Assembly (NCBI RefSeq): GCF_000973085.1
Contig: NZ_CP011280.1
Location: 956,642-1,020,641 of the forward strand
Source: Sneathia vaginalis
Lineage (GTDB): Bacteria; Fusobacteriota; Fusobacteriia; Fusobacteriales; Leptotrichiaceae
DNA: 64,000 nucleotides
Reading direction: 5' to 3'
The position numbers were made by a program, and so were the translations under genes. How positions within the stretch are numbered: position 1 is the stretch's first letter; each line of letters opens with the position of its first letter. The notes under the pieces are model-generated. The model searched no databases. It was given only the letters and a program-made list of their open reading frames with translations, and was not told the origin of the DNA. Positions 7,793-61,791 of the stretch are shown piece by piece.

Positions 7793-7826
7793 AAAAAAAA
7801 AAAAAAAAAAACAGCTTTCGCTGCTT
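7793..7826 (-). terminator. terminator of the hydrolase-gapN-glucokinase operon
   Basis: Just after the glucokinase stop the minus strand has AGCAGC-GAAA-GCTGTT, a short GNRA-loop hairpin, followed by an unbroken run of 19 T (plus-strand A19, 7793-7811). An exceptionally long homopolymer for a terminator tail. Confidence 0.88.
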
Positions 7827-27033: not shown

Positions 27034-29040
27034 CTAATTTTTTTTAATTAATTTTCTTAATTCTTTCATTTCATTTTCTAATTCTTTAATTTTTTCGTTT
27101 TGTTCTTTACTTTCTTTCATATACTCTAGAATTTTCTTTTCCATTCTTTTTATAACGTCATCTTTTGTACTACTTACTACTGTCATACCAAAGCCTAGTC
27201 CTACTCCTACATTTCCTCTCATATTTGTTGATACTCCCAACTTATATGAAAATCTTTCTGTATTTCCACTGATTCCTACTGCTAATGCATGTTCTCCTCC
27301 ATATGTTCCATATGCCCCTGTTATATTAACCAAACCTTCTCTTGGTTGTGTCATACTTGACATAGCTATTGCATTCGCTACTCCACCTAGGGCTAAGTTT
27401 GATTTTGCATTAATACCTTCTAATTTTTTATCTACTTCTGCTTTGTTATAGTAGTTTTCAGCTGAAAAAGAATTAGCCGCAACATAATCTTTTAATTGTT
27501 TTACATTTACTGCATCTGTATCAGCTGTTCCTTTTGCAACAAATTTTAATTGTCTTTGTGTAGTCTCATTACCAATTGATACTGCATTTTCTATTGCTTC
27601 AGAGCCATTACCTATTACTACTGCGTTATTTTTTTTATTAATTTTAACTTCATTCCCTAATACAATATTATTTTCACCATATATTTCATTATTATTACCA
27701 TGTAATATATTATTATTTCCAACAGTAATATTTTCAACTCCAAATACTTGATTTTTATCTCCTTTAGTATAGTTTTTTTCACCTATAGAATTAGAACCAT
27801 TACCAAAAGTTGCACTATTAGAACCTAATGTTACAGAATCAATACCTGCTGTTAAAGCATTAGTACCTATTGCATACGATCTAATCCCTATTGCATATGA
27901 AGAAGTTCCATATGCTAAATTATCTTCTCCTTTATATTCAATACTCTTTAAAAGTTCTTTCAATTCATTATTAAATTTTTCTTTCCATTCTGTAAAATAT
28001 GCTACTCTTCCTTCATATTCATTTAACAAATCTTTTTCTTTTTCTACGTTTTTATTTAACTCATCATATGTTTTCCCTACATTGTAGTGTGACACTTTAT
28101 TCCTAAAAGCAATTTTGTATAACTCTTCACTACAATTATCCATTTTATCAATTTCAAATTCTTTATGAGCTTCCAAAAAACTTTGTATTAAAGGCAATCT
28201 ATATGTTTTTATTTTTGCCTTTATATCCTTAACATTTTCATTTATTATATTATTGTCTTGTGGTTTACCATAATATGGACTAATATCATATACATTACCT
28301 GCCATAGGCTCTTTTAATTTATAACTAATACAATCTGATAAATATTTTTTCAAATTTTTTTCATCATCTAATTTCAAATAATCCCAAACAACTTGATCAT
28401 TAATAAATCCTTTTATTTTAGCCTTACTTAAATTAGAATTTCTATTATCATCAGCTTCATCTTTAAATGTAATATTTTCTATTGTTTCACCAACTAATCC
28501 TTTTTTATCTATTAAATAATCAGCTATTTTTCTTAAAGTAGCTCTGTAATCTCCAATTGGTGTACCAAACTTTTTATTAATTTCAATATTTTTTAATATT
28601 ATTATATTAGCAAATTCTCTAAATTTTTCTCTATCATCTGTAACTTGTTTTAATTGTGTTTCTACTTTTTGTTTATCAATAAAAAAATCATTTATTATTT
28701 TCATTTGACTTTCTATAGAATTTATTCTTTTTAATTTATTTATATATTGTTCTTTTATATCCTTAACTCTATTATCTATATCTGCTTTTGTTTTTTGTAT
28801 TTCATTTTCTATTTTACTCTTATCAATTAAATTTGAATTATAATATTCAAAATAATTATCTAAAGAATTAGAATTCGTTCCAATTGCAATACTATTTTTT
28901 GTTAAACTTATACCATCACTACCTTTAACATAAGAATTTTCACCTATTTCAAACTCATTTATTCTATTCTCAGATAAAGTAATACTACCAGTAATTACAA
29001 ATAAAATTATTATTAATATTTGTCTTGTATTTTTATTCAT
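27034..29040 (-). CDS. trimeric autotransporter adhesin TAA1 (YadA-like)
   Basis: Surface adhesin that trimerises and crosses the outer membrane through its own C-terminal barrel. 668 residues: signal peptide (about 1-23, MNKNTRQ then a hydrophobic run), a short head start, a long helical stretch (about 60-370), a YadA head with left-handed-roll repeats of the SxAIGxxS type (about 375-510), a neck ending in TDAVNVKQLKDY, and the YadA anchor (about 547-622, SNLALGGVANAIAMSS to GFGMTVV). Unusually the chain runs on for 46 residues past the last barrel strand as a charged coiled coil. Promoter with a run of 11 G in its spacer. A decayed relative of the head lies at 7390-7680. Confidence 0.92.
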   Translation of the reverse strand: MNKNTRQILIIILFVITGSITLSENRINEFEIGENSYVKGSDGISLTKNSIAIGTNSNSLDNYFEYYNSNLIDKSKIENEIQKTKADIDNRVKDIKEQYINKLKRINSIESQMKIINDFFIDKQKVETQLKQVTDDREKFREFANIIILKNIEINKKFGTPIGDYRATLRKIADYLIDKKGLVGETIENITFKDEADDNRNSNLSKAKIKGFINDQVVWDYLKLDDEKNLKKYLSDCISYKLKEPMAGNVYDISPYYGKPQDNNIINENVKDIKAKIKTYRLPLIQSFLEAHKEFEIDKMDNCSEELYKIAFRNKVSHYNVGKTYDELNKNVEKEKDLLNEYEGRVAYFTEWKEKFNNELKELLKSIEYKGEDNLAYGTSSYAIGIRSYAIGTNALTAGIDSVTLGSNSATFGNGSNSIGEKNYTKGDKNQVFGVENITVGNNNILHGNNNEIYGENNIVLGNEVKINKKNNAVVIGNGSEAIENAVSIGNETTQRQLKFVAKGTADTDAVNVKQLKDYVAANSFSAENYYNKAEVDKKLEGINAKSNLALGGVANAIAMSSMTQPREGLVNITGAYGTYGGEHALAVGISGNTERFSYKLGVSTNMRGNVGVGLGFGMTVVSSTKDDVIKRMEKKILEYMKESKEQNEKIKELENEMKELRKLIKKN

Positions 29041-29059: not shown

Positions 29060-29091
29060 ATTATATACCCCCCCCCCCGAAATTTTGTCAA
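29060..29091 (-). promoter_or_regulatory. TAA1 promoter with G11 tract in the spacer
   Basis: Minus strand TTGACA (29091-29086), then AAATTTC, eleven G (plus-strand C11, 29068-29078), then TATATAAT. Spacer is 18 bp to TATATA or 20 bp to the better box TATAAT (29065-29060). The ATG is 20 bp downstream of TATAAT, after AGGGAGAGG. Slippage of the G run would shift the spacer length and so promoter strength. Confidence 0.85.
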
Positions 29092-56699: not shown

Positions 56700-56728
56700 A
56701 AAATGCCAGACACATCTGGCATTTTAAT
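56697..56728. terminator. bidirectional terminator between lysS and TAA2
   Basis: AAATGCCAGA (56701-56710) pairs perfectly with TCTGGCATTT (56715-56724), loop CACA, flanked by A and T runs on both sides. It ends both convergent transcripts. Confidence 0.92.
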
Positions 56729-59006
56729 TTTGACCTAATCTTTTCATGACTTTTTCAAGTTGTTTTTCTAATCTATTAGTCTTTTCAGTTTGTTCTTTTA
56801 ATCTATTTTCAAGATCACTAATTCTCTTATCCTTACTATTTACACTACCAAGCATTACTCCAGCTCCAATACCAAAGGCAAGATTACCCTTACTATTAAC
56901 TGATCCACTTAGTTTGTAGATAAAGTTTTGATTATCATTTGTTCCACTAAATCCAACAGCTACTGCATGAGAACCACCATAATATCCATATGATGCTGCT
57001 AAATTAAACTTCTTATCTCCCATTACTTGTGGTAGATTAGCCATAGCCACTGCATTTGATACTCCACCTAAAGCAAGGTCTGATTTCTTATCTACTTCTT
57101 TAACATCTTTTTGTAGTTGTTGTATATCACTAGTATTCTTTTCTACTTTTGTTCTAACAGCCTTTAATTGACTTACATTTACTGCATCTTTAGCTTTGAC
57201 ACCATTAGCTACATTTGTTATGACTTTTTCACCATCTTTAACACGTAATATTACATTCTTTTTTTCATCACTTTTTAACTTAGAATATTCTTCTTCAGAT
57301 AAAACTTTTTCATCTAAAACATATTCAAATGTATTTGAACCTCCAACATTTTCATTTACTTTAAAGGTTGCTATATGTTCTTTTGGTGTTTTAGTTTCTG
57401 TTGGTGTAGGTGCAATTTGTGGTGTTACAGCAGGTTTACTAGTATTAGGTTGTGTTGTTTGAGATTGTTTACTAGTTTTATCATCATCTACTGATATATC
57501 AATACCATCTCCTTTTAACACCAAAGTATCTCCTAATTTAACGTTTATAGTTTTTTCTCCTGCTTTTACATTTATATATTGGTTCTTTATTACTTGTTTT
57601 AGTTGTGCAACATTAACTGCATCAGTATCTTCACTACCTGCTGCAAGTCCTGTTAATTGACGAGTCATTCCTGTATCTTCATTACCTATAGATACTGCAG
57701 CTCCTGTTGATTTCCACATACAAATTGCCTTATTATATGCCATTGAATTTTCAGCACTTAATCTTTCAACCTCTTCTTTTAAATTTTTATCATCGGGCTT
57801 AGTTTTTAATTCATCTTTTTTTACTTTCAAATTATTATATGCCTTAACCCATTCATCATATTTTTCATCATTCCCTATTTTTTTATTCAAATCTACTTTA
57901 TCAACAAATGGAACATAACCTAAAGTCCCTTTATCTCTATTTGATATAGAACCATAACCTAAAGCTACACCAGTTTCATAATTTACTTTTGAACTTACAC
58001 CTAATGCTGTTGCAAATCCAACATTAGCATTTGAATAAGGTCCTATCGCTAATGACCAGTTACCATTTACATTTGCTTTATATCCATATGCCATACTTGC
58101 TAGTCCTATAGCATTTGAATTACTACCACTTGCAATTGTATAGTTCCCTATAGCATTTGAATCACGACCAATTGATATAGCATCTTCACCTGATGAAACT
58201 AAAAAAGATCCTAAAGCTAAACCATGTTGTCCTCCTCGGTATTCTTTTTCTTTTTCTTTTTCCCCATATTTATATTTAGATTCTGAACCTATAACTTCAT
58301 TCCCATATCCAAATGACATTCCTAAATCTTCAACTTTAGAACTTTTACCGAAAATAACACTACCACCACTAATTGTATTTGTCATACCAGTAACTACATT
58401 TTGATCAGATCCTTTTTTATTGTATTCCCATACTGCTAATTCATTTTTTTTATCAGCATTTTTATTAATTGCTGTCCATCCAACTAAATTCCCTTGACCT
58501 ATAACTACATTGTGTTCTCCAGATACTTTTGTAAGCTTATTATCTCCATTATAGTAATCTATTCCTACAACAACATTATATGCACCATCGACTTCAAGAT
58601 TATTACCTAAAACAACACTATTATTTTTACCATTTTTTATACCTGTAAGTTTAGAATTTACACCAATTACAATACCATTATCTCCTCCTTTAGCACCATC
58701 ATTAGTATAATTACTATTTGGACCTGTTTCATTTGAATTTACTGAAATATAATGTAATCCATCATTTAAATTTATTGTATATGCTTTATTATTTTCATCA
58801 ATAACTACTAGCTTATACTTATTTTTTTCTTCATTTGTAAGCTTATTGTATTCTTCTTCTGTTAAAACTTTCTTACTTTGTGCATCAACATATATTTTAA
58901 TATTATCTGCGTATCCTATACTACCATAGAATAAGAATGGTAATATTGTTAATATCATTAATTTAAGTTTAAATTTAAAACTAAACTTAATGTCATTTAT
59001 ATTCAT
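56724..59006 (-). CDS. trimeric autotransporter adhesin TAA2 (YadA-like)
   Basis: 760-residue surface adhesin. Extended signal peptide with a charged start and hydrophobic core (about 1-33, ending GSIGYA). Then a passenger of left-handed-roll head repeats (about 95-375, for example SGEDAISIGRDSNAIGNYTI), a helical neck, RQLTGLAAGSEDTDAVNVAQLK (two parts, near 480), a Thr/Pro-rich linker (near 540-565), a second neck KAKDAVNVSQLKAV, and the YadA anchor (about 648-722). A 38-residue coiled coil follows the anchor. A module of the form VLxEEEYxKL with following acidic residues occurs twice, near 47 and near 590. Promoter spacer contains a G tract. Confidence 0.93.
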   Translation of the reverse strand: MNINDIKFSFKFKLKLMILTILPFLFYGSIGYADNIKIYVDAQSKKVLTEEEYNKLTNEEKNKYKLVVIDENNKAYTINLNDGLHYISVNSNETGPNSNYTNDGAKGGDNGIVIGVNSKLTGIKNGKNNSVVLGNNLEVDGAYNVVVGIDYYNGDNKLTKVSGEHNVVIGQGNLVGWTAINKNADKKNELAVWEYNKKGSDQNVVTGMTNTISGGSVIFGKSSKVEDLGMSFGYGNEVIGSESKYKYGEKEKEKEYRGGQHGLALGSFLVSSGEDAISIGRDSNAIGNYTIASGSNSNAIGLASMAYGYKANVNGNWSLAIGPYSNANVGFATALGVSSKVNYETGVALGYGSISNRDKGTLGYVPFVDKVDLNKKIGNDEKYDEWVKAYNNLKVKKDELKTKPDDKNLKEEVERLSAENSMAYNKAICMWKSTGAAVSIGNEDTGMTRQLTGLAAGSEDTDAVNVAQLKQVIKNQYINVKAGEKTINVKLGDTLVLKGDGIDISVDDDKTSKQSQTTQPNTSKPAVTPQIAPTPTETKTPKEHIATFKVNENVGGSNTFEYVLDEKVLSEEEYSKLKSDEKKNVILRVKDGEKVITNVANGVKAKDAVNVSQLKAVRTKVEKNTSDIQQLQKDVKEVDKKSDLALGGVSNAVAMANLPQVMGDKKFNLAASYGYYGGSHAVAVGFSGTNDNQNFIYKLSGSVNSKGNLAFGIGAGVMLGSVNSKDKRISDLENRLKEQTEKTNRLEKQLEKVMKRLGQN
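56825..57097. repeat. anchor-coding repeat, copy 1
   Basis: About 270 bp coding for the YadA anchor of TAA2, nearly identical at DNA level to 59267-59537 and 62084-62356. Long stretches, such as the one beginning CCAATACCAAAGGCAAGATT, match without difference in all three. Confidence 0.9.
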
Positions 59007-59028
59007 ATATAATCCCCTCCAACTCTGT

Positions 59029-59055
59029 ATTCTACCCCCCCCCGCATATTTTCAA
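59029..59055 (-). promoter_or_regulatory. TAA2 promoter with G tract in the spacer
   Basis: Minus strand TTGAAA, then ATATGC, a run of about nine to eleven G (plus-strand C run starting at 59035), then directly TAGAAT (59034-59029), 22 bp before the ATG, with GGAGGGG as ribosome site. The spacer is about 15-17 bp, so a change of one or two G would move it through the optimum of 17. Confidence 0.82.
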
Positions 59056-59093: not shown

Positions 59094-59138
59094 AAAAAAG
59101 ATGAAGCTCGCAACAGTTTGCAATACCTCATCTTTTTC
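59094..59138 (-). terminator. terminator of TAA3
   Basis: Minus strand AAAGATGA, then TTGCAA facing TTGCGA, then TCATCTTTTTT: a two-part hairpin with a T run, 18 bp after the TAA3 stop and before the TAA2 promoter. Confidence 0.8.
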
Positions 59139-59155
59139 CTATTAATGTTTATTAA

Positions 59156-60928
59156 CTATTTATTCATTAATCTTTTCACAATATCTTCTAGTTTTTGAAT
59201 TCTTTCATTTTGTTTTCTAATATTTTCTGCAAATATATTATTTTGTTTAGTTAATTCTTCTATTTTCTTATCCTTACTATTTACACTACCCATCATAACA
59301 CCAGCTCCAATACCAAAGGCAAGATTACCCTTACTATTAACTGATCCACTTAGTTTGTAGATAAAGTTTTGATTATCATTTGTTCCACTAAAGCCTATAG
59401 CTAACGCATGAGAACCTCCATAATATCCATATGATGCTGCTAAATTAAACTTCTTATCTCCCATTACTTGTGGTAGATTAGCCATAGCCACTGCATTTGA
59501 TACTCCACCTAAAGCTAGGTCTGATTTCTTATTTGCATCCTCTATCTTTTTATTCATTTCTTCTTTTTCCTTGGCTAATAGACCAGCACCTTTTGTTATA
59601 TCCTTGAAAAAGTCTTCTTCCTTAGCATTAGGCTTATTTTTCTTTTCTTTCCATACTTCAAAGGCACTCTTTCCATCTTGTCCATCTTTTCCATTTTTTC
59701 CATCTTGCCCTTTATCACCTTTATCGCCTTTTAACCATTTAACAAAGTCTCCTTCACTTTTGCCTGCATTACCATCTTGCTTTAACCAACTTTGATATGC
59801 TGATTCACCATCGCCTTTTATTCCTTGTTCTCCTTTTAATGAATCAATAAAATCTAATTCAGTTAAGTCCTTCAATTTTTTATTATGCTTATCTGCATAT
59901 TCAATAGCTTTAGATGATGTAGCCCATATATCATATGCACTCTTTCCTGCTTTTAATGTAACTTTTTTATCTACATAACTTCTCATTGCTTTTAATTGAG
60001 CAACATTAACTGCATCTGTATCTTCACTACCTGCTGAAAGACCTGTTAATTGACGAGTTATACCTTTATCAGGATTACCTATAGATATTGCACTAACTGT
60101 ACTAAAATACGGTGTTACTCCTTTAATTTTATCTTCTAATTCTTCTAATGCTGTATCTAATGTTTCTCTTTCAGTTTTTAAACTTTTTATTTTTACTTTT
60201 TTTTCATTTAAATCTCTTTCCAAAGAATCTTTTGTTTTTTTAATTTGTTGCAAAATATAATTTTCATGGACATTAGTTTCATTAAATTCATTAAGACCCT
60301 TTATATTAATTTCATTTTTTTCATTTTCTTTTTCTAAATTTTTTATGTCATAAATATTATTCTTTATTTCCTGTTTTTTATCTTTTATTTTTTTTATATA
60401 ATCAGTGTATTTTACACTTTCATCTAATCCTAAATCTTTATTTGTATATTCTTTATCTTCAACAACATTATATCCATACTTCCCTTTTTCTCTATCTGCT
60501 AGTGCTTCGCTACCTATTGAAAATCCTTCTTCAATTTTTGTTACTGCACCTTTTCCTATAGATACTCCTTCAGTTGCACTAGGTTCTACAGTTCCTCCTG
60601 AAAGTGCAAGTGAATTTTTAGCCTTTGCATAACTCCAACTACCCATTGCAATTGCATTATTCCCATATGCTTCTGATTCATAACCACTCGCAAATGAACT
60701 ATTACCATAAGCTTTAGTATAATATCCAAATGATATTGATTCTTTACCTGCTGAAAGTGTATTATATCCATAAGAAATTGAATGAATTCCTGAAGATATG
60801 GCATTTTCACCACCTGCAAATGTTCCTTTATTACCTGCAACACTTTCTATTCCTATTGCGAATGCTCCTTGTCCATATGAAGCATTTCTAACACCTATAG
60901 CAGTTGAATTATTACTTGGTTTATTCAT
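59156..60928 (-). pseudogene. TAA3, distal part: head, stalk and anchor of a frameshifted adhesin
   Basis: 590 codons that begin directly in YadA head repeats (NNSTAIGVRNASYGQGAFAIG) with no signal peptide, so alone they could not be exported. They continue a gene begun at 61731: the upstream frame ends at 60925 just after a run of eight A (minus strand, about 60952-60945), and one extra A would join both frames. Contents: head (1-175), long coiled coil (190-285), neck TDAVNVAQLKAM, a collagen-like stretch GDKGDKGQDGKNGKDGQDGK with three SAY/F-x-x-W modules (about 330-450), YadA anchor (about 475-549) and a 41-residue coiled tail. Either a true off state, a dead gene or a base-calling error at the homopolymer. 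Confidence 0.85.
59267..59537. repeat. anchor-coding repeat, copy 2
   Basis: YadA-anchor segment of TAA3, near-identical to the copies in TAA2 and TAA4. It differs from both mainly around 59393-59422, coding SHALAIGF instead of SHAVAVGF. Confidence 0.9.
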
Positions 60929-61731
60929 TTCAAATAAACCAAATTTTTTTTAAAACTATAATAATTATTTTTCCAATCATAATTTATAGCATAAGGCTTA
61001 TTTTTCTCCTTAATTCCAGGATTATCTCTTTCTTGTTCATAGCCAATTATTAATTCTTTATCCTTTATACCATTGGATATCTTCTTTTTAATTGGTTTCA
61101 ATTGCATTCCAGCACTATTCCCCCAACCCAAAGCAATGTTAGAATTTAAATCTTGTCTACCCCAATTATCTTTTCCTTTATACACGTTATTATTAAACAT
61201 TGCTAAGTATTGTGCAGTATCATCATTAGCAGTATATATATTCCCATGCAATCCATCAAATTGTAAAGCTCCTAGACTAAAATTATGGTTATTTAAGTCT
61301 AACTTTGTTTGTGCAAATGCTCCTCTTACAAATTTTTCATTACCTATACTTACACCTGAAATTATTTGATTTTTACCATCAAGATTAATAAATCCTACAG
61401 AAAATTTAGCTTCCCCTCCATTTTCACCATCTTCTTTTATTTCTATTTTAACGCCTGGATACGTTCCACCATTTTTTGATGTTTTAAATTTACCAATTTC
61501 TATATTTTTTAAATCTTTTTCTATTTGTTTTTTTACTGCATTTGGTATTTTTTTATCTATTTTTTTCCCTAATTCATCATCCAAATAGTCTAACCATTGA
61601 TTTATTCGATCATCTACATAATCATTTATTTTATCTACATCTCCATTAGCATATATATTACTTACTCCTGTAAGGAATATACTTGAAATAATTAAAATTA
61701 AATTAATCTTTTTCTTACCACTTTTTTTCAT
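60925..61731 (-). pseudogene. TAA3, proximal part: signal peptide and N-terminal domain
   Basis: 268 codons with a signal peptide (MKKSGKKKINLILIISSIFL, cleavage near residue 28) and an N-terminal region of helices (30-75) and beta segments with head-like elements (QIISGVSIGNEKFVRGAFAQ; SNIALGWGNSAGMQ). No anchor. It stops at 60925, overlapping by 4 nt the ATG that opens the distal part in another frame. The shift is explained by a run of eight A in TTTAAAAAAAATTTGG; nine A would give FKKKFGLFEMNK and read through. As it stands it would be a secreted fragment without outer-membrane anchor. Confidence 0.82.
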
Positions 61732-61763: not shown

Positions 61764-61791
61764 ATTGTACCCCCCCCCATTCTATTTTCAA
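61764..61791 (-). promoter_or_regulatory. TAA3 promoter with G9 tract in the spacer
   Basis: Minus strand TTGAAA (61791-61786), ATAGAAT, nine G (plus-strand C9, 61770-61778), then directly TACAAT (61769-61764). Spacer is 16 bp; adding one G gives 17. The ATG is 32 bp downstream of the -10, and the ribosome site (GTTGAGG) is weak. Confidence 0.85.

Follow-up and report, generated by a model that had tools for sequence, protein, structure and literature searches.

A candidate phase-variable poly-G promoter upstream of a trimeric autotransporter gene in Sneathia vaginalis

Introduction

Sneathia vaginalis has been associated with both preterm birth and bacterial vaginosis, and among its candidate virulence factors are the adhesins. 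In the window, that is, the whole 64-kb stretch of Sneathia DNA analysed here, a pure run of G separates the -35-like and -10-like boxes upstream of TAA2, a gene for a YadA-like trimeric autotransporter. The locus raises the question of whether the length of this run sets the expression of the adhesin, or whether the run is instead a fixed spacer, a relic of promoter duplication or an element of the transcript.

Results

Anatomy of the TAA2 promoter

The elements of the promoter and the ribosome-binding site were read from the sequence, and are located around TAA2 as follows:

59029-59055, minus strand: whole TAA2 promoter, TTGAAA-ATATGC-GGGGGGGGG-TAGAAT
59050..59055, minus strand: -35-like box TTGAAA, which also precedes other tract promoters of the genome
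59035..59043, minus strand: G9 tract (GGGGGGGGG) within the -35/-10 spacer
59029..59034, minus strand: -10-like box TAGAAT abutting the tract, spacer 15 nt
59014..59020, minus strand: ribosome-binding site GGAGGGG, 7 nt before the TAA2 ATG
56724..59006, minus strand: TAA2, YadA-like trimeric autotransporter of 760 aa with a signal-peptide-like N-terminus (YadA_stalk 3.4e-19, YadA_anchor 5e-11, YadA_head 5.6e-6)
59094..59139, minus strand: terminator-like hairpin with a U run, between the TAA3 stop and the TAA2 promoter (fold -23.2 kcal/mol, z -6.2)

An earlier note, made from the letters of this DNA, had described the site as TTGAAA, ATATGC, about nine to eleven G and TAGAAT without a gap, and this description was exact. 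The tract consists of exactly nine G, with nothing between it and the -10-like box; assemblies may miscount a homopolymer by one base. Each of the two boxes has one mismatch to the consensus, and the TAA2 ATG is located 28 nt downstream of the tract. The site was absent from the output of a simple promoter scan because that scan allows only spacers of 16-18 nt. The window contained no G/C runs of length 6-8 and three of 9-11, and G8 words were observed 8 times compared with 0.07 from dinucleotide shuffles, so the G tracts in the window are far from chance.

The protein combines head repeats, a coiled stalk and a C-terminal YadA anchor, and the matches to PF05658, PF05662 and PF03895, all above their cut-offs, identify it as a trimeric autotransporter adhesin of the YadA/Hia type. 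The hairpin with its U run, which was not listed by a pattern scanner, lies about 90 nt from the TAA2 ATG. Because this hairpin follows TAA3, TAA2 probably depends on its own promoter, and read-through from TAA3 appears unlikely.

Other tract promoters in the window

Two further G-tract promoters, one of them outside the earlier note's finding, precede trimeric autotransporter (TAA) genes in the window:

61764..61791, minus strand: TAA3 promoter TTGAAA-ATAGAAT-G9-TACAAT, spacer 16 nt, from the sequence
60925..61731, minus strand: 5' reading frame of TAA3, 268 aa, with a frame change near an A8 run at ~60944
59156..60928, minus strand: 3' reading frame of TAA3 with stalk and anchor, 590 aa, from the open reading frame and domain matches
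29061..29091, minus strand: third tract promoter TTGACA-AAATTTC-G11-TATATAAT, tract at 29068-29078, from the sequence, outside the earlier note's finding
27034..29040, minus strand: TAA downstream of the third tract promoter, 668 aa (YadA_anchor 2.3e-9)
61943..64000, minus strand: TAA4, running past the window end; its upstream region (genome 1021781, beyond the window) carries T14 and no G tract

The kinship of design between the TAA2 and TAA3 promoters, to which the note had drawn attention, is borne out by these elements. The frame change in TAA3 near the A8 run (~60944-60951) could mean a second switch within the coding sequence, decay of the gene or a fault in the assembly. On the minus strand, positions 7793-7811 of the window hold a T19 run, possibly a terminator tail and the sole A/T run longer than 10 in the window.

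G tracts recur in promoter spacers across the Sneathia genome

The Sneathia genome analysed, a single contig of 1,330,224 bases, contained 13 tracts of at least 8 G, and outside the window its sequence was read in the stretches surrounding tracts. Twelve of these were located in promoter spacers with a common layout and strand, 11 before TAA genes and one before a small secreted protein; at 198499 and 410635, the TAA assignment is by position and a long downstream open frame. The -35-like boxes of the 12 promoter tracts were TTG-led, with one TTC-led, and a -10-like box was found at the tract edge or at most 3 bases away. All 13 tracts directly preceded TA or TG, and most were followed by a -10-like hexamer. 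In a strict register, which allowed at most one mismatch in the -35 and at most two in an abutting -10, both boxes were present at 7 of the 13 tracts compared with 0.9% of equivalent positions upstream of open reading frames (binomial P ~6e-12). Signal-peptide-like N-termini, called by a simple hydrophobicity rule, were encoded downstream of the tracts in 11 of 11 cases and in 8 of 49 background reading frames. YadA_anchor matches numbered 20 in this genome, and 11 of them have a promoter G tract.

The one non-promoter tract, a G9 at 576604-576612, lies inside an open reading frame of 689 aa after a proline/glutamate-rich stretch and is in frame in the assembly. This reading frame is a candidate translational switch, with no Pfam family above cut-off. 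A strand bias was also observed: every G tract (13 of 13 in Sneathia, 40 of 40 in S. moniliformis) occupies the plus strand when it falls in the first half of its contig and the minus strand when it falls in the second. With an origin close to position 1, the tracts would apparently be oriented along the direction of replication.

T tracts form a second candidate promoter class

Six of the nine remaining TAAs carried a run of T13-T20, mostly a few bases 5' of a TAAAAT-like box, and the same layout was found at seven outer-membrane-like paralogs. The runs are located as follows:

Genome 16836, 62914, 67567, 83265, 85007, 878857, 882287, 1021781, 1095833, 1100866, 1109146, 1160196 and 1205357: T13-T20 tracts (MKKTLLLTSLVASMVAMAGTTGSV...)

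The downstream -10-like box is indistinct at 1021781. Together, the T-tract promoters make up another class of candidate switches. A long homopolymer, G or T, is thereby present in the promoter region of 17 of the 20 Sneathia TAAs. No tract was found for the three others, 822189, 818453 and the degenerate 833860; the start of 822189 is uncertain, and 8.5 kb upstream of it were examined. In S. sanguinegens, several contigs (C2, C10, C15, C17 and C18) end in or near T17-T21 runs, which may break the assembly and conceal further promoters.

Tract length varies between related promoters, and the nearest S. sanguinegens homolog of TAA2 lacks a tract

Tract length differed in 15 of 25 closely related promoter pairs with flanks 75-100% identical, nearly all of them from Streptobacillus and, as the pairs share members, not independent of one another. 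The differences amounted to 1-3 G, with the flanks kept. Clear single pairs included G10 and G11 with flanks 98-100% identical and, inside a single genome, G9 and G11 followed by identical DNA.

As for the TAA2 locus itself, its closest homolog in S. sanguinegens (84% identity) lacks a G tract and adjoins an apparent ATP synthase epsilon gene, a neighbour other than that of TAA2. A syntenic TAA2 copy was not found behind lysS in S. sanguinegens, where other genes are located. Because the homolog lacks the tract and lies in other surroundings, the comparison indicates that the TAA2 tract was gained or lost between the species, or that the gene moved to another promoter; long-term conservation of the tract at this locus is not supported by these sequences. 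A search with the TAA2 protein returned no relative from the genome_contigs, viral contigs and plasmids collections. Within the Sneathia genome, the DNA upstream of TAA2 was clearly similar to that at the tract promoters 876939 and 884081 and weakly similar to that at 874072 and 985709. Similarity to this upstream DNA was slight or absent at the tract promoters 880580, 1046788, 198499, 410635 and TAA3, and for TAA3 none was detectable.

The same design in Streptobacillus, the phylum and gut bacteria

In Streptobacillus moniliformis, the rat-bite-fever bacterium, 36 of 40 G tracts were located in TTGACA-N6-10-G9-13-(TATAAT-like) spacers with a perfect TTGACA. All 20 tracts of a second, presumed Streptobacillus genome had a perfect TTGACA on one side and a TATAAT/TATACT-like box on the other. 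Signal-peptide-like N-termini were found behind 31 of 35 tracts in S. moniliformis and 18 of 20 in the second genome, which brings the count to 60 of 66 with Sneathia included, these three being the best-sampled genomes, and in Streptobacillus the design precedes several gene families. Across the phylum, the design with at least 8 G was present in 15 of 98 genomes, concentrated in the Sneathia/Streptobacillus family; a reversed control pattern gave one match in the 98 genomes compared with ~65 for the forward pattern.

In a pattern scan of named genomes, the TTGACA-N-G8+-TATAAT design was also observed in many gut Bacilli, Clostridia, Saccharibacteria and others, in at least 120 stretches, mostly before secreted or membrane proteins. 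Among the matches listed for gut genomes, 17-nt spacers were rarer than expected (9 observed, 19 expected; permutation, P ~0.003) in an exploratory histogram built from a pattern that took spacers up to 19 nt only. Streptobacillus was without a dip at 17 nt against permutation.

Discussion

We interpret the TAA2 promoter as a phase-variation (contingency) promoter with a slippage-prone G tract in its spacer, and assign this reading a probability of roughly 85%. The label of phase-variable-type promoter given in the earlier note is strongly supported, since the design recurs genome- and family-wide before surface proteins and the tract length differs between related Streptobacillus promoters. 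TTGAAA and TAGAAT would form the sigma-70-type promoter in use at TAA2, and replication slippage would add or remove G and thereby alter how far apart the two boxes stand. RNA polymerase has its optimum near a spacer of 17 nt and performs poorly on either side. Tract length may therefore set TAA2 expression, on/off or high/low in each cell, in a heritable and reversible manner and independently of the other tract promoters. With G9 the spacer measures 15 nt, so the recorded state of TAA2 is probably low or off; two more G (G11) would give the optimal 17 nt. Absent mismatch repair as the cause of slippage was considered and rejected, since the Sneathia genome and five relatives have intact MutS and MutL, so no mutator state need be assumed.

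The uniform layout over many promoters is also what would be expected of a regulon-specific site, and many tracts share a length of G9-G10. Both would suit a tract that acts as a fixed structural spacer (a stiff, A-form-like G run) or as the site of a shared regulator, with its length not being a switch. We regard such a role as unlikely. Tracts this long are slippage-prone in well-studied bacteria, which counts against a fixed spacer. Furthermore, the differences of 1-3 G between related promoters with kept flanks argue against it, and a binding site needs neither pure runs of 8-13 nor an abutting -10. The output of poly-G promoters in T. pallidum, moreover, varies with tract length (PMC7864442).

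Less probable still is that the tract was passed on when TAA promoters duplicated and has persisted as a relic without selection. Such a relic would fit the alignment of the region upstream of TAA2 with four other tract promoters, two of them more weakly, and the S. sanguinegens homolog that manages without a tract, but five tract promoters, that of TAA3 among them, have little or no such upstream similarity, and in Streptobacillus more than one gene family is preceded by this design. Neutral pure G runs would also decay, and the window is without G/C runs of 6-8. That the tract acts post-transcriptionally in a 5' leader, through a G-quadruplex or an effect on translation, with the true start further upstream, is very improbable. 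The G tract does lie on the RNA-like strand, and an upstream start would be compatible with the sequence, but all 13 tracts directly precede TA or TG, most of them a -10-like hexamer, and the distance from hairpin to ATG is small. An intramolecular RNA quadruplex was rejected, as a single G run is present where four are needed.

The same evidence bears on the proposal in the earlier note that the tract is kept by selection and not only by common descent. For the design overall, the proposal holds. It is weaker for the TAA2/TAA3 pair, and it is unproven at the TAA2 site, given the tract-free S. sanguinegens homolog and the upstream kinship to other tract promoters.

A length-switched TAA2 promoter would belong to a known kind. 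In Treponema pallidum tp0126, which encodes an OmpW-like protein, reporter data showed that transcription is best when poly-G sets the boxes 17 nt apart (PMC7864442), and in the passages on Neisseria meningitidis porA in the same source, poly-G lies between -35 and -10, with near 17 nt being best (PMC7864442). TAA2 shares two properties with this spacer type: a pure homopolymer of slippage-prone length lies between TTGAAA and TAGAAT, and the product, with its YadA stalk and anchor and its signal-peptide-like N-terminus, is surface-exposed. It shares with tp0126 the poly-G between -35 and -10 and an outer-membrane protein (PMC7864442), and with porA, as those passages describe it, the pure G tract in the spacer and a surface protein. 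Both systems are from other phyla, and tp0126 belongs to another protein family. Whereas porA is one gene, at least 12 promoters in one Sneathia genome carry the design, with the tract abutting the -10 and preceding trimeric autotransporters, and switching there is predicted from the DNA. In N. meningitidis opc and T. pallidum tpr, the length of a G/C tract in the promoter of an outer-membrane protein sets transcription (PMC7864442); the opc tract covers the -35 and the tpr tract adjoins the start site, whereas the TAA2 tract lies within the -35/-10 spacer. The T13-T18 tract in the promoter of the Helicobacter pylori adhesin gene sabA (PMC11162790) resembles the T13-T20 class of Sneathia and not the G9 of TAA2. 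The sabA tract brings UP-like elements into register with the core promoter, whereas the putative Sneathia T-tract promoters mostly have the tract a few bases before TAAAAT.

The TAA2 case and the family-wide scale of the design seem undescribed. Phase variation and homopolymer tracts are unmentioned in the Sneathia genome papers (PMC3535699 and PMC13393775) and in the S. moniliformis genome paper (PMC3035246). A full-text literature search for phase-variable Streptobacillus, or for Leptotrichia phase variation together with simple sequence repeats, returned no reports; its coverage left subscription journals mostly outside.

Taken jointly, the observations allow a wider reading that we advance tentatively, at somewhat less than even odds. 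According to it, 17 of the 20 TAAs and seven outer-membrane-like paralogs would be under independent switches, poly-G in the spacer or poly-T near the -10, and the poly-G design would recur before secreted proteins of many gut bacteria, with assemblies avoiding the optimal 17 nt and most cells keeping most such promoters off. If each adhesin has its own length switch, thousands of adhesin combinations could arise from one strain. If the length switches are true, a single genome or a single expression snapshot would mislead.
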